From: a virus
Virus record (IMG/VR): IMGVR_UViG_3300032285_001662
Location: 1-27,779 of that record
DNA: 27,779 bases
Reading direction: 5' to 3' (one strand)
The notes beneath the pieces are model-generated. The model did not search any database and was not told where the DNA came from. It was given only the letters and a program-made list of their open reading frames with translations. Both the position numbers and the translations under genes were made by a program. Shown here one piece after another: positions 17,673-24,142 of the stretch (its first letter is position 1; each line of letters starts with the position of its first letter).

Positions 17673-18016
17673 TGGTGAACGCCGCCAAGGCCAAGGGCAG
17701 CCGGGCCGAGCGTCAGGTGGCCGACTACCTGACCGCCAACGGCATCTCGGCCGACCGCATCCCGGCCGGCGCCACGCTCGACCGTGGCGACTTGTGGCTG
17801 CCGTCGCCGGTCATGCCATCCATCGACGTCAAGGACCACGCCACGCCACAGCTGGCTGCGTGGGTCGACCGTGCCGCCGAGCAGGCCGAGAACGCCAAGC
17901 GCTCCGTCGGCGTGGTCTGGCACAAGCGCCGTGGGAAGGGCTCGCCGGCCGACTGGTACGTCACCACGTCCGGCGCTGGCTTCCTGTCGATCTTGCAAGC
18001 GATGGAGGCAGCGTGA
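17672..18016 (+). CDS. Holliday-junction-resolvase-like PD-(D/E)XK nuclease
   Basis: The 114-residue protein starts with a basic KAKGSRAERQVADYL helix (E13), then DRGDLW (D40) and IDVKDH (D52-x-K54), followed by a helix and a strand (VGVVWHKRR). The order E, G-D, D-x-K matches the small archaeal-type (Hjc-like) resolvase and related phage nucleases. It probably trims branched DNA during replication or packaging. The start ATG overlaps the stop of the microprotein gene by one base. There is no DNA-binding accessory domain. Confidence 0.75.
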   Translation: MVNAAKAKGSRAERQVADYLTANGISADRIPAGATLDRGDLWLPSPVMPSIDVKDHATPQLAAWVDRAAEQAENAKRSVGVVWHKRRGKGSPADWYVTTSGAGFLSILQAMEAA

Positions 18017-18545: not shown

Positions 18546-18569
18546 TCCCCGAATCCCCAAGGAGAAGTG

Positions 18570-20213
18570 ATGACCATCGACGAGCTGCTCGCGCTGCCGA
18601 CCCGACGTGACCGGTGGGGTCGTTACGTGGTGCTGCCACCAGGCGGATCGAAGCCGATCGGCTACACCCGAGCGACCACGATTGCCAAGACGCTCGACGA
18701 CCAGCAGGCGCTGATCGAGTGGAAGGCCCGCATGGTCGCCATCGGCATTGGCGCCCGTCCTGACCTTGCCGCTCGGGCCGCAATGGTCGATAAGGACGAC
18801 CGTAAGGCCCTTAATGTTCTCGCTGACGACGCCGCCACGGCTGGTGGGGCGACAATCCGTCGAGACCAGGGCACGGCGATGCACGCCGCCTTCGAGAAGT
18901 CGTGGCACGACCTCTCGGCCGTCCCGGCCATGTTCGCCACCGAGGCCAAGGCCGTTCACGACGCACTGGAGGCCGCTGGCCTCTCGGTGGTCGAGGGCAT
19001 GGCTGAGCGCATGGTGGTGAACGACGCCTACCAGGTGGCCGGCACGTTCGACCTCGTGCTGAGCGACGGCCAGCAGCTCTACGTCGCCGACGTCAAGACG
19101 GGGTCGAGCCTCATGGGCGCCCTGTCGTTTGCCATCCAGCTGACGCTCTACGCCACCGCCGACAACTTGTACGTACAAGGCGCAGCCGCCGACGGGTCCG
19201 AGGACGTGCGAGAGGCCATGCCGGCGCTGAGCAGAAACGCAGGCGTTGTGCTGCACATTCAGCCCGGTTCGGCAGTGTGCGACCTGCACTGGATCGACCT
19301 CGAGGCTGGCGCCGAGGCCCTCGACCTCGCCATGAAGGTGCGCGAGATGCGCAAGGTGAAGGTCCTGTCGAAGGTCGAGGCTGTCTCTGAACCCGAGCCG
19401 TCTCGCAAGACACGAGACGAGGTGCAGGCCGAGACGGTCGCCAAGGTCAAGGAGGCGTTCCCCGGTGCCGAGGAGCTCGTCGGCAACGTCTGGCGCACGT
19501 GGATGAAGGGTCGCCTTGGCGAGATCGTCGCCCAGGGCCAGAAGCAGGCGCTGTTGCAGGCATGGCCCGCCGGCGTGCCCAAGTTGGCCAGCGGCGAGGA
19601 GATCACCGACGCCCAAGCGCAGCTGATCGAGCAGATGTGCGAGGAGGTCGAGCGCGAGCACACCTTGTCGTTCCCGGCTCCGAAGCCCAAGTCGATTCGC
19701 CGGCCGTCGGAGTTCAACCCCGCCGACGTGCCCAGCGATGTCGACCTGACCCGCTGGGTGTCGAAGGTGGCGCAGATTCCCGAGCCGCTCGACGAGGGCC
19801 GTGAGATCACGACCAAGGAGGCCAAGCCGCTCAAGGAGCTCCAAGCCCGCCTCAGCCCCGAGGTCCAGGCGTGGGTCGGGTCGATCCTGACCAACGCCAG
19901 CCGGGCCAAGGTCGCCTTCCGCATCACCGGCACGGCCGGGCGCTACACCGAGCGCCGACTGGCGATCAACACCGCGCTGCTGACGGTCGCCGACCTCGGA
20001 CAGGACATCGTCACGAAACTTGTCGAGACGGCAAGGAATGAGCCACTTGACGGCATGCCGCTGGCCAAGGCTTTCGGCCTTCTCACCATCAACCAGGCGA
20101 ACCGCCTCTTTGCCCTCGGCAAGGCCGTGGACGAGGGCACCGTGACGCCCATCTTCGAGCTGGACGGCGGCATTGCGCTGACTGGCGACCTCGACCGGGC
20201 GCTCGCCGCCTGA
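18570..20213 (+). CDS. RecB/Cas4-like PD-(D/E)XK exonuclease with C-terminal extension
   Basis: The 547-residue protein starts 5 bases after AAGGAG. The nuclease domain (about residues 90-270) shows H105 in GTAMHAAFE, GTFDLVLSDG (D161), VADVKTG (D174-x-K176) and QLTLYA (Q190, Y194). That is the full motif set of the RecB/AddB-type exonucleases used by phages in recombination. The other half (about 290-547) is helical with a charged, Pro-rich linker (APKPKSIRRP). It could bind DNA or the partner protein, and I cannot assign it. The SSB-like gene follows, which fits a phage recombination pair. Confidence 0.82.
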   Translation: MTIDELLALPTRRDRWGRYVVLPPGGSKPIGYTRATTIAKTLDDQQALIEWKARMVAIGIGARPDLAARAAMVDKDDRKALNVLADDAATAGGATIRRDQGTAMHAAFEKSWHDLSAVPAMFATEAKAVHDALEAAGLSVVEGMAERMVVNDAYQVAGTFDLVLSDGQQLYVADVKTGSSLMGALSFAIQLTLYATADNLYVQGAAADGSEDVREAMPALSRNAGVVLHIQPGSAVCDLHWIDLEAGAEALDLAMKVREMRKVKVLSKVEAVSEPEPSRKTRDEVQAETVAKVKEAFPGAEELVGNVWRTWMKGRLGEIVAQGQKQALLQAWPAGVPKLASGEEITDAQAQLIEQMCEEVEREHTLSFPAPKPKSIRRPSEFNPADVPSDVDLTRWVSKVAQIPEPLDEGREITTKEAKPLKELQARLSPEVQAWVGSILTNASRAKVAFRITGTAGRYTERRLAINTALLTVADLGQDIVTKLVETARNEPLDGMPLAKAFGLLTINQANRLFALGKAVDEGTVTPIFELDGGIALTGDLDRALAA

Positions 20214-21593: not shown

Positions 21594-22055
21594 ATGCCCA
21601 AGGGAGTCAAGGGATCGGTTCGATGCGGCACGCACAGCGGATACCAGCGGCACCGTCGCAACGGCGAAGAGGCGTGCCGCCCCTGCAAGGACGCCGCCAA
21701 CGCTGCCAACAAGAGCAACAGAGCGAAGCGGCTGGCTGCCAACCCGCCGACCTTCATCATCCCGGTGCGGTGCCCGTTGTGCGAGGCGCCGACCGAGGAG
21801 ATCAACAAGCGGTCGGTCAATGGTGAGCTCGTCGCCGTCGTGAAGTGCCAGAGCGTGAGCTGCGCCCGTCATTTCCTCCTGCGGGCCTTCATGGCTCCGT
21901 TCGCTCGAGGCGCGGACGGCGAGCCGTCGAAGTGCGGCACCGAGGCTGGTTACGCCGCTCACAAGCGAGCCGGCGAAGAGACCTGCGACCCGTGTCGCCA
22001 AGCGCACTCCAACCGGCAGATGGACAGAGCAAACAGAAAGAAGGCAGCGGCATGA
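21594..22055 (+). CDS. Cys-rich zinc-binding protein with an internal duplication
   Basis: The 153-residue protein follows GGGGAGG by 6 bases. Its N- and C-terminal parts are copies of one another: CGTHSGYQRHRRNGEEACRPC (11-31) and CGTEAGYAAHKRAGEETCDP + C (114-134), each followed by an Ala/Asn/Arg-rich helix. Between them is another Cys cluster (C60, C63, C85, C90), so up to three metal sites. The CGT-x-x-GY-x-x-H-x-R-x-GE-x-x-C-x-x-C unit is met in small actinophage proteins; its function is unknown to me. The highly basic ends suggest nucleic-acid contact. Confidence 0.75.
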   Translation: MPKGVKGSVRCGTHSGYQRHRRNGEEACRPCKDAANAANKSNRAKRLAANPPTFIIPVRCPLCEAPTEEINKRSVNGELVAVVKCQSVSCARHFLLRAFMAPFARGADGEPSKCGTEAGYAAHKRAGEETCDPCRQAHSNRQMDRANRKKAAA

Positions 22056-22252
22056 GCAAGAAGTCCCCAGGCAGCAAGTACGCCATGAAGGCCGGGCGGG
22101 CGAAGTACCTCGCCGAGCGCGAGCGGTTCCGCCAGAAGCGTGACCGTCGCCTCGAGCAGGAGCGCAAGGCCGCCGAGATCGGTTCCTACTTCCACCTCAC
22201 CAAGGACTCGATCGAGCAGATCGACCCGGACGCAGAGCGGCGGGCGTCGTGA
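22052..22252 (+). CDS. small basic helical protein
   Basis: A 66-residue protein coupled by ATGA to the Cys-rich gene. It is very basic in the first two thirds (AGRAKYLAERERFRQKRDRR) with a single long helix likely, then an acidic end with FHLTKDSIEQIDPDAERR. No family is recognised. A nucleic-acid- or ribosome-binding role would fit the charge, but this is inference. Confidence 0.65.
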   Translation: MSKKSPGSKYAMKAGRAKYLAERERFRQKRDRRLEQERKAAEIGSYFHLTKDSIEQIDPDAERRAS

Positions 22253-22425
22253 ACGATTTTACCGCCAAGGTGCGCTCGATGTCGCTCGACGAGATGTGGA
22301 AGGCGTCACGGCGTCGCACCGGCCTCTGCCATTCGTGCGGGGCGCAGCTGAAGGTCACCGAGGACCACACGCTCTGCGACGTCTGCTGGGACCTGATGAT
22401 CCCCGTCGAGATGGAGGAGGACTGA
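22249..22425 (+). CDS. small zinc-ribbon protein
   Basis: A 58-residue protein starting at GTG overlapping the previous stop (GTGA). After a helix (SMSLDEMWKASRRR) it carries CHSCG and CDVC, 16 residues between the pairs, a typical zinc ribbon, and ends with an acidic tail (VEMEED). No partner is known. Overlap with both neighbours and normal codon use support it as a gene. Confidence 0.68.
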   Translation: MNDFTAKVRSMSLDEMWKASRRRTGLCHSCGAQLKVTEDHTLCDVCWDLMIPVEMEED

Positions 22426-22628
22426 TGCGCTCCGGCCCGTTCGTCAGGATCGAGACCCAAGACCACGGCAGCGCCTACCTCGTCTCGTGGTCGAAGGGCG
22501 AGGTCGTGTTGCACCGTGCCTTCGGCAACCTCGACCGCGCCAAAGGCTTCTGCGAGGCGTTCATCGGCCGGACGCTCACCGAGCGGGTCGACTTCTTCGG
22601 CATGAAGCTGTGGGAGGCGTCGCTGTGA
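22425..22628 (+). CDS. small hypothetical protein
   Basis: A 67-residue protein starting one base before the end of the zinc-ribbon gene. FVRIETQDHGSAYLVSWSKG and EVVLHRAFG suggest a three-stranded sheet, followed by a helix (DRAKGFCEAFIG). Unknown family. The stop overlaps the GTG start of the first member of the tandem paralogue array. Confidence 0.65.
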   Translation: MRSGPFVRIETQDHGSAYLVSWSKGEVVLHRAFGNLDRAKGFCEAFIGRTLTERVDFFGMKLWEASL

Positions 22629-23044
22629 GTCAGAACCCGTACATCGGCCAGGCGCAGATCAGCACGCAGGTCGAGCACGAGGGCTACGCCATCGGCGATC
22701 TGGTGGTGTGGAAGTCGGCACAGAACAAGGACAAGACGACTCGCTACTTGGTCGAAGGCTTCAAGGGTGATCGAGCGATCCTGCGGTGCCTCCACGACGA
22801 GACCTGGTCGCCGATCGCCGAGTGGTTCGTCAAGGCCGACGAGACCGAACGTCAACACGACGAGGTCGTGGACGTACTTACCCAGATCGTCGGCTCAAAC
22901 CTGTCCGAATCGTCGGACACCGTGAACATCACGATCAGCCGTGAGGACGCCGAGGGGTGGGCGAGCGACGACGACCACATTCACGCAACTGCTTGGGGAC
23001 TCGTCGATAAGGCCATCCGAGCAGCACTAGAGGGGGAGCGATGA
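22625..23044 (+). CDS. tandem-array paralogue 1 (with extra N-terminal domain)
   Basis: The 139-residue protein starts at GTG overlapping the previous stop. Residues 1-80 form a separate beta-rich module (YAIGDLVVWKSAQNKDKTTR, KGDRAILRCL) resembling an SH3-like barrel. The C-terminal 40 residues carry the array motif VNITISREDAE and the terminal RAALEGER shared with the next three genes. This is the only member with a second domain. The last codons lie in the 20-bp repeat that also holds the ribosome site for the next gene. Function unknown. Confidence 0.7.
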   Translation: MSQNPYIGQAQISTQVEHEGYAIGDLVVWKSAQNKDKTTRYLVEGFKGDRAILRCLHDETWSPIAEWFVKADETERQHDEVVDVLTQIVGSNLSESSDTVNITISREDAEGWASDDDHIHATAWGLVDKAIRAALEGER

Positions 23045-23301
23045 GTTGGAGCGATGAGCAGTTGCGCTCCATCGGCTGCGTAAGGACGGCGAGCAACACC
23101 GGCCCTCCGGCCCAGCCCGACACCGTGACCATCACGATCAGCCGTGAGGACGCCGAGTTCTTGACAGCAATGACGGACTTGGATGGCAACGAGTACGACC
23201 TGCCCTACCTCGCTCGCATCGAAGCAGCAGCCCGAGCAGCACTAGAGGGGGAGCGAGGAGCCAGAACTTTACCCCTGAGGGGACACAAGTGGCAGCACTA
23301 G
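23041..23301 (+). CDS. tandem-array paralogue 2 (C-terminal read-through extension)
   Basis: The 86-residue protein shares TVTITISREDAEFL and AARAALEGER with its neighbours. Where the others stop right after GER, here the ATGA of the unit junction reads AGGA, so translation runs on for 14 residues (GARTLPLRGHKWQH) and stops inside the next repeat copy in another frame. The variable segment between motif and end (TDLDGNEYDLPYLARIE) is acidic and helical. Function unknown. Confidence 0.7.
   Translation: MSWSDEQLRSIGCVRTASNTGPPAQPDTVTITISREDAEFLTAMTDLDGNEYDLPYLARIEAAARAALEGERGARTLPLRGHKWQH
23256..23291 (+). pseudogene. remnant of a fifth array unit
   Basis: Between repeat copies 2 and 3, only 56 bases apart rather than about 200-215, the sequence AGGAGCCAGAAC lines up with the ATGAGCCGAAC start of units 3 and 4, with ATG changed to AGG. 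The rest of the unit is missing. It reads as a unit that lost its start and body, probably by recombination between repeats. Confidence 0.55.
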
Positions 23302-23311
23302 AGGGGGAGCG

Positions 23312-23515
23312 ATGAGCCGAACCGACAAGATCCGCCAGGTGGCACAGCAGGCCCACGACAACGGCGACTGCGAGTGCGTGACCATCACGATCAGCCGTGA
23401 GGACGCCGAGTCGTGGCTGAGCAAGCAAGACGACGCGTGCACCTGGGACAAATGCACGGCTCCGGCTTGCATCCTCGAGCGAGCGTTCCGAGCAGCACTA
23501 AAGGGGGAGCGATGA
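23312..23515 (+). CDS. tandem-array paralogue 3
   Basis: The 67-residue protein starts just after repeat copy 3 (ribosome site GAGGGGGAG). It has the array motif CVTITISREDAESW, a variable part with three Cys (ACTWDKCTAPAC) and the end FRAALKGER. The Cys set is not found in the other copies, so the variable region differs in kind as well as sequence. Function unknown. ATGA overlap with the next unit. Confidence 0.7.
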   Translation: MSRTDKIRQVAQQAHDNGDCECVTITISREDAESWLSKQDDACTWDKCTAPACILERAFRAALKGER

Positions 23516-23724
23516 GCCGAACGGCAGAGTTCAAAGCCGACGAACGGTCGAATGTAACGAACCTTGACGCTGGTTCAAGTTTCGTGACCATCACGCTCAG
23601 CCGTGAGACGGCTGAAAACATCGTGGACCCATCAGCGGGTCAGGACGATGGCGCAACCATGTGGGACTTCTACGGCAAGGAACTTGTTGCGGCCTGTCGA
23701 GCAGCATTGAAGGAGCAGCGATGA
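23512..23724 (+). CDS. tandem-array paralogue 4
   Basis: The 70-residue protein starts MSRT like unit 3 and has the motif FVTITLSRETAENI, a variable acidic part (SAGQDDGATMWDFYGKE) and the end CRAALKEQR. It is the most diverged member. At its end the fifth copy of the junction repeat gives an AAGGAG ribosome site for the following zinc-ribbon gene. Function unknown. Confidence 0.7.
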   Translation: MSRTAEFKADERSNVTNLDAGSSFVTITLSRETAENIVDPSAGQDDGATMWDFYGKELVAACRAALKEQR

Positions 23725-23972
23725 CCCTTTACAACTGCAGCAGCTGCCGACGCTGGCACAACGGTCGAGGCCACGTCTGCGGCGACCCACTCCCAGAAAT
23801 ACGCGACACCAACTCCCTGAAAAGTGCAGTTGTCAGGGAGGCCCGAGCGCTTATCGAGGCCGTGGACAGCGGTTGGGGACGCCTCGTCGATAAAGGCTGG
23901 GACTTTGGCCCGCTCCGCAAGGCGCTGATCGAACTTGACGGCCTTGACCGCCCGCTCCAGGAGGAGAAGTGA
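23721..23972 (+). CDS. small N-terminal zinc-binding protein
   Basis: An 83-residue protein with C6-x-x-C9, H13, and H18-x-C20 near the start (NCSSCRRWHNGRGHVC), enough to bind one zinc. A helical part (LKSAVVREARALIEAVDSGW, RKALIELDGLD) follows. It is not a member of the preceding array but is coupled to it by ATGA. No family is recognised. Confidence 0.65.
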   Translation: MTLYNCSSCRRWHNGRGHVCGDPLPEIRDTNSLKSAVVREARALIEAVDSGWGRLVDKGWDFGPLRKALIELDGLDRPLQEEK

Positions 23973-24142
23973 TGCCACGACTCAAGCGTGAGATCCACGT
24001 CCACGGCTGGGTCGAACTGGCTCGGCCGACCTTCGACGCTCGCGTGCGGCGGTGCATCAGCTGCGGCGCCGTCCAGGTGCGCCGCCATGGCGAGTGGATC
24101 ACACTGTCTCTTCCATTCCCCAGCCAAAGAGAGACCCGATGA
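23972..24142 (+). CDS. small basic CxxC protein
   Basis: A 56-residue protein with a strong AGGAGGAG ribosome site before ATG. The N-terminal half is basic (MPRLKREIHVHGWVEL), and RRCISCGAVQVRRHGEW gives one C-x-x-C with nearby His residues, possibly half a zinc ribbon completed by a partner or by dimerisation. The stop overlaps the next ATG (ATGA). Function unknown. Confidence 0.6.
   Translation: MPRLKREIHVHGWVELARPTFDARVRRCISCGAVQVRRHGEWITLSLPFPSQRETR

Follow-up and report, generated by a model that had tools for sequence, protein, structure and literature searches.

How does a row of small phage genes come to share one internal block and one end when the segments between them are unrelated from one gene to the next? 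The question is raised by a 27.8-kb IMG/VR virus record (IMGVR_UViG_3300032285_001662; its whole length of 27,779 nucleotides is referred to here as the window), in which four coupled small genes, G1–G4, lie in tandem on the same strand at positions 22625–23724. The answer favoured here, with a probability of roughly 0.8, is that this is a swappable small-gene array, found in phages whose hosts are apparently actinobacteria, with parts that are shuffled at short boundary sequences by the ordinary homologous recombination of phages. A unit of the array consists of a front module, a shared block, a back module, and a junction repeat.

The tandem array with its shared block and ends is confirmed as real and exceeds what chance would produce. 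The block, V[TN]IT[IL]SRE[DT]AE, which the original prediction had correctly placed in four consecutive genes, is present in all four, and a pattern search of the whole window found no other copy. The common RAAL-type end claimed at the same time holds in part: RAAL[EK][GE][EQ]R is the true C-terminus of G1, G3, and G4, but it occupies residues 65–72 of G2, where it is internal and no longer an end.

Exchange of modules and turnover of units

The variable middles of neighbouring genes are unrelated, yet they are ~78%–98% identical to units elsewhere that carry other fronts. The G3 front (MSR.DKIR..), together with its preceding junction, is 91%–94% identical to contigs L005 and L006, in which it is joined to a clearly different back; the latter is found in L007 too, there preceded by the G4 front. 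Identity stops at the end of the block: alignments of window positions 23292–23401 with both L005 and L006 end at the last base of GTGAG, and the alignment of L005 2756–2870 with L007 begins one base before the block. Similarly, the G1 back module (GWASDDDHIHATAWG) matches, at 95% identity, L005 and L006 units whose fronts differ, and it stands behind Cys-rich fronts in L005, L006, and L007. A homologue of the G1 front has its own diverged back in L005 (1820–2197), and stand-alone homologues of this front are found in L053 and L054, while the shared domain itself stands alone as a 56-amino-acid (aa) protein in L063; the parts are therefore separable.

Among 496 unit pairs, the front 54 bp only is shared in 10, the back only in 12, and both in three, so that recombination at the block is seen in 22 of the 25 related pairs, a count to be read with the reservation that unit pairs are not independent. 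Of the 72 ends of 36 module-sized matches, 44 fall inside a block or junction or at most 6 nt from one, as against 31% for random array positions (p ~1e-7), a test somewhat biased towards these elements as every unit has both. On these comparisons, the shared block is a second exchange point at which front and back halves are re-paired, a feature that the original prediction missed.

Whole units are gained and lost at the junction repeats, as had been proposed. Contig L005 is syntenic with the window on the left (22041–22427, 88%) and on the right (23959–24138, and the prim-pol gene) but has neither G2 nor the decayed unit that follows it; the MSRADKIR unit comes immediately after its GWASDDDH unit, and the two matches to the window overlap by the junction repeat. 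In L005, the G1 back module thus directly precedes the G3 front module, with the break at a junction, and between the window and L005 the G3 back and the G1 front have been exchanged at the block. Contigs L006 and L007 have flanks that are 97%–98% identical on the left (over kilobases) and 97% identical on the right, ~9 kb in all, and they hold two and four units, respectively, with the breaks at junctions.

The 56-bp spacing between G2 and G3, taken earlier for one lost unit with AGG in place of ATG, is real and does hold such a remnant. AGG at 23256–23258 differs from the ATG of the other copies by one T-to-G change. Start and stop overlap here (ATGA), so that this single substitution removes both the start of the remnant and the stop of G2 (TGA to GGA); G2 is thereby extended by 14 residues, up to a TAG within the following junction copy. 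Read on from AGG, the frame gives SQNFTPEGTQV-AALEGER-stop, a front piece fused directly to the common end. This front piece resembles the unit fronts of L008 and L060 (MSQNFTSEDTQ) and of L006 (SQNSTSQGTQV), with 82% identity to L006 5793–5826 over 34 bp. The remnant is what is left of a unit after loss of both its middle and its start, whichever of the two went first. Altered units are seen elsewhere too: in L060 (6553–7212, oriented), two units are fused in frame via a junction without a stop frame (ALEGGAMSDTY; ..RAALEGGAMSDTY..), and in L059 (2900–3253, oriented), a TGA in the common end, at the position of CGA in other units, truncates a unit whose front carries a fossil block (DTVTITS-STLGQRD).

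Conserved DNA, relatives, and surroundings of the array

The junction consensus is CCGAGCAGCACTAGAGGGGGAGCGATGA, and its DNA carries three things: the codons of the common C-terminus, a ribosome site, and the ATGA stop/start overlap. The dual role originally assigned to a 20-bp repeat, namely coding the C-terminus and supplying the ribosome site of the next gene, is thus borne out, but the conserved length is nearer 26–28 nt; that of the block DNA is ~26–30 bp. Where units have the same residue, the codon is also the same with a frequency of 0.79 in block codons 1–8 (0.53 expected from codon usage) and 0.86 in the tail (0.47 expected), whereas block codons 9–12 fall below expectation (40% versus 57%); synonymous conservation is therefore confined to block codons 1–8 and the tail. 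The tail uses GCA as well as CTA, the latter in 22 of 32 unit tails, although CTA makes up 0.5% of the Leu codons elsewhere in the window. By this measure, two DNA stretches per unit, block and junction, are conserved beyond protein need. Three causes can each have a share in this conservation, and the data do not separate them: a recent spread from a source richer in AT, the ribosome site, and homogenisation through recombination.

The junction also precedes genes without the shared domain (L054:5806, L060:6018, L057, and L058). One gene that starts at a junction repeat, L054 4947–5570 (oriented, array on +), encodes a repeat-rich protein without the shared domain that resembles hexapeptide repeats (GNARVYGNAWVFDNAQ..); another, L060 6018–6335 (oriented), is a membrane-protein-like open reading frame. 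A third recurrent break-point, CTTTAGGGCAGCGGGATG, lies ~45 bp before the block (L053 3879, L058 6333, L059 3123, L062 5736, and L054 4783, oriented) and has the look of a former junction that is now translated through in a different frame. The idea that an inverted repeat in the block, TCACG..CGTGA, might be an operator or a hairpin was rejected, as it is lost where codon 7 is CGA or CGC and its folding is not beyond chance. Within the array, neither a terminator nor, on the coding strand, a sigma-70-like promoter was found.

Relatives were sought among IMG/VR contigs with a profile of the four proteins, the junction sequence, and the block DNA; a first broad alignment (A2) was too diverse for a locus search. 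The profile yielded seven contigs, the junction seven further contigs, of which two without the domain were set aside, and the block DNA one more (L063, the stand-alone member). The two set aside, G010 and G011, have an 18-bp junction end without the domain or further similarity and were taken as chance matches. The domain is thus carried by 14 IMG/VR records including the window, 13 of them with the junction and the remaining one with a diverged junction; with a family model, it was found in 13 of the 16 further records searched, usually in tandem. At the sensitivity used, 50,697 GenBank phages gave no nucleotide match and no tblastn relative; no relative was found in 72,556 plasmids, nor by junction or protein patterns in 84,980 bacterial and archaeal species genomes (468 protein-pattern matches, none a relative). 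The family is real but rare in sequenced data, and the broader phage family once suggested has turned out to be a narrow one.

Of the 16-mers present in at least four of 12 contigs, all 65 lie within arrays, in the block, the junction, or front modules. In two large phage records the array has a GC content very different from that of its locus, with sharp edges: 0.58 in 0.38 in the 124.7-kb G009, and 0.59 in 0.46 in the 90.9-kb G004. These GC-rich islands in large low-GC phages (L054:4600–6000 and L060:4750–7250, oriented, array on +) were apparently imported as a block. Base composition and sequence matches together indicate that units move between unrelated phages of very different GC, which had also been missed earlier.

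The window encodes a head protein, a tape measure, a phage integrase, an excisionase-like protein, WhiB proteins, an exonuclease, and a prim-pol protein; it is a temperate tailed phage, and the WhiB and integrase genes fit a temperate actinobacterial phage. As the junction and protein patterns led to no relative in the species genomes, the host is only inferred, and it is probably an actinobacterium, given WhiB, the GC content, and the similarity of the capsid gene to Mycobacterium and Gordonia phages. The array is flanked by a series of small genes and by the prim-pol gene, and its position is between the latter and the exonuclease gene (Table 1).

Table 1. Array features and selected neighbouring genes, with positions in the window
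Feature	Position	Strand	Description
G1 (unit 1)	22625..23044	+	GTG start, 139 aa; YIGQ front domain, shared block, and back module GWASDDDHIHATAWG..RAALEGER
G1 front domain 'YIGQ'	~22640-22843	+	SH3-like look, from inspection, without database match
G1 shared block	22922-22945	+	
G2 (unit 2)	23041..23301	+	86 aa; common end 23233-23256, then 14 extra residues
Decayed unit	23256..23315	+	19-codon remnant between G2 and G3; AGG at start position; SQNFTPEGTQV joined to AALEGER
G3 (unit 3)	23312..23515	+	67 aa; front MSRTDKIRQVAQQAHDNGDCEC, block 23378-23401, Cys-containing back module
G4 (unit 4)	23512..23724	+	70 aa; front MSRTAEF.ADERS, block 23584-23607, end RAALKEQR
Gene behind array (MTLYNCSSCRRWHNG..)	23721..23972	+	Coupled to array by ATGA
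Junction repeat 1 (CGAGCAGCACTAGAGGGGGAGCGATGAG)	23017..23045	+	Common C-terminus, Shine-Dalgarno, ATGA stop/start
Junction repeat 2	23232..23260	+	GAGG in place of GATG of other copies
Junction repeat 3	23292..23316	+	25 nt; serves G3
Junction repeat 4	23488..23516	+	Serves G4
Junction repeat 5, diverged (GCATTGAAGGAGCAGCGATGA)	23697..23725	+	Serves gene behind array; identical to L061 over 36 bp
Core block DNA copy 1 (GACACCGTGAACATCACGATCAGCCGTGAG)	22916..22945	+	Internal exchange point
Core block DNA, other copies	23119-23148, 23377-23401, 23583-23607	+	
Phage exonuclease (phrog_466)	18567..20213	+	E 2.8e-61; Pfam PDDEXK_1 slightly under cut-off; candidate part of recombination machinery

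The gene behind the array (MTLYxC..RWHNG.GH.C) is array-adjacent in three phage backbones. It comes after the array in L006 (6607), L007 (7220), and L061 (6030) as well, and its first half is common to these contigs and the window. As its DNA is conserved in the first half only, this gene is itself mosaic. A small nuclease encoded at 17681–18016 of the window has a sub-threshold PDDEXK_15 match, and L006 8810–9148 and a minus-strand gene behind the 56-aa gene of L063 are alike by eye; these small nucleases of several array-bearing phages might be resolvases.

Competing explanations and the proposed mechanism

Tandem units on one strand with shared ends would also be left by in-place duplication within each phage lineage, with the middles drifting and the block and ends kept by selection on the protein. 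That the middles of neighbours are unrelated and recur in other phages behind other fronts does not fit this account, nor do the conservation of synonymous sites in block and tail or the purifying selection on the back modules, and it is contradicted by the ratio of 22 to 3 between separate and joint sharing of fronts and backs; we regard it as very improbable. A dedicated shuffling system, whether site-specific with integron-like cassettes or a diversity-generating retroelement, is hardly credible at all: the head-to-tail layout with one repeat per unit is cassette-like and an integrase is present, but the integrase is of the ordinary phage type (phrog_1), no reverse transcriptase (RVT_1) match was obtained in the 14 records (mostly fragments), no attC-like structure was found, junction and block RNA folds no better than shuffled sequence, and exchange occurs at the internal block too. 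More serious, though still somewhat unlikely, is the view that the conserved stretches are mainly regulatory, serving translation start in the manner of the Start-Associated Sequences (SAS) of cluster K mycobacteriophages, and that exchange is a by-product of their repetition. The junction holds a Shine-Dalgarno sequence, overlaps ATGA, and precedes genes without the shared domain too, and the SAS stands in the same place without a known exchange role (PMC3203893); however, the internal block lies away from a start and is nonetheless similarly conserved and at least as frequent a break-point, and the diverged junction 5 still gives a good ribosome site.

A further alternative concerns the proteins, in which the shared domain would be a ribbon-helix-helix (RHH) dimerisation and DNA-binding domain and the units phage transcription regulators. 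The AlphaFold2 model of G3 has three helices and leaves the block strand unpaired (predicted local distance difference test, pLDDT, 81), while that of the natural two-copy L060 protein has strands 31–37 and 66–72, its sole strands, as its only sheet, with two helices after each (pLDDT 60). The strand-helix-helix order and the paired strands of the two-copy model speak for such a domain, as does the one unit whose front is a true RHH_1 domain (27.1 bits, cut-off 20.5). On the other hand, no RHH model appears when 36 members are compared with Pfam at E values as high as 5, there is no PDB match, model confidence is low, and the loop between the two helices varies in length, and we therefore hold this alternative to be unlikely. 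On the favoured reading, block and back module may together form a small strand-helix-helix domain, possibly one that pairs through its strand. Other fronts appear, by inspection or from sub-threshold matches, Cys-rich and zinc-ribbon-like, coiled-coil-like, or SH3-like; the front domains, some of which look nucleic-acid-binding, probably supply the target.

The back modules have a ratio of non-synonymous to synonymous polymorphism (pN/pS) of 0.18, as against 0.32 for the prim-pol control, indicating purifying selection; they are hence functional proteins that are not rapidly diversifying, and rapid diversification by point mutation is rejected. The diversification that the original prediction saw in conserved ends with variable middles is, by the sequence evidence, module replacement, as the variable segments recur nearly unchanged in other phages. 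The size of the unit proteins (50–180 aa), their position, coupling, and turnover suggest, at a little under even odds, that these small non-structural products are accessory early proteins of host takeover or counter-defence.

Recombination at boundary sequences could act on such an array as follows. Between co-infecting phages, or phage and prophage, the block and the junction would often be the sole homology. General phage homologous recombination at a junction would add or remove whole units, and an arriving unit would bring its own ribosome site and coupled start, allowing immediate expression; recombination within the block would re-pair fronts and backs in frame. The minimal efficient pairing segment is 23–27 bp for Red-beta and 31–34 bp for RecA (PMC3945230), and since the former matches the 26–30-bp stretches found here, the enzymes are presumed to be single-strand annealing proteins of the RecT/Red-beta type. 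RecT is encoded in record G006, and a phage exonuclease in the window.

Several points, besides the dependence among unit pairs and the bias of the end-position test, weigh against this reading. RecT was found in one of the 14 records and the exonuclease family in three, although the records are fragments, and no enzyme is tied to the exchanges; some of the DNA conservation might reflect recent common ancestry, with no role for the conserved DNA. The shared domain has no match in Pfam, PHROG, NCBIfam, or PADLOC above curated cut-offs or at a significant E-value, and none in fold searches of the PDB, a profile search of PDB sequences giving weak-scoring antibody and ETV6 look-alikes only; the ribbon-type fold is weakly indicated by one low-confidence model (pLDDT 60). 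Rather improbable is the more ambitious proposal that block and junction are recombination sites kept for that purpose in a shared, transferable small-protein kit, whose members would pair through the common strand as homo- or hetero-pairs and draw on one pool of halves across unrelated phages.

Comparison with known systems

Among the SAS and ESAS elements of cluster K mycobacteriophages, the SAS comprises 13 bp with the consensus GGGATAGGAGCCC a few bases before start codons (PMC3203893). Like the junction, these elements are short, strongly conserved, same-strand, multi-copy repeats at the ribosome-site position of many small non-structural actinobacteriophage genes; the upstream stop can fall within the element, and conservation extends beyond the Shine-Dalgarno sequence. 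However, CCGAGCAGCACTAGAGGGGGAGCGATGA does not match GGGATAGGAGCCC. Nor are there reports of a common C-terminus encoded by the SAS or of a part played by it in exchange; it lacks an internal partner site, and the gene families to which it is linked mostly retain it from one genome to another. The PeSL of T4-type phages (Arbiol 2010, Comeau 2014), as summarised in PMC4503421, are likewise repeated regulatory elements between genes that mediate modular shuffling, but they are described there as mobile cassettes of an early promoter and a stem-loop terminator, whereas the array elements are coding and carry a ribosome site without promoter or stem-loop. The exchange of C-terminal domains in polymorphic toxins, as outlined in PMC3482391, is an analogy only: there too, one protein part is recombined with many alternative ends, but the array has no secretion or toxin signature, both its halves vary, and its products are small phage proteins.

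The closest concept is recombination at boundary sequences (PMC3029335, PMC3945230), in which short conserved sequences at mosaic borders are used by general recombination and whose length scale for Red-beta fits the stretches seen here. The origin of phage mosaicism has long been disputed between such recombination and illegitimate joining followed by selection, and a survey states that boundary sequences are not identifiable at most phage module borders (PMC3029335). In this family, they are directly readable, and near-identical phages differ in the units between them, which makes the model testable by recoding; short shared DNA at module borders is thus visible, and open to testing, as swap points in virus evolution. 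The array also shows small proteins being put together anew in nature from exchangeable halves, and this may shed light on why phages have so many orphan small genes. As at other boundary sequences, the exchanged modules cease to be homologous at a short stretch conserved across genomes that are not otherwise related; the sequences described here differ in that they are identifiable and coding and occur twice per gene, one of them inside the gene, so that halves are re-paired.
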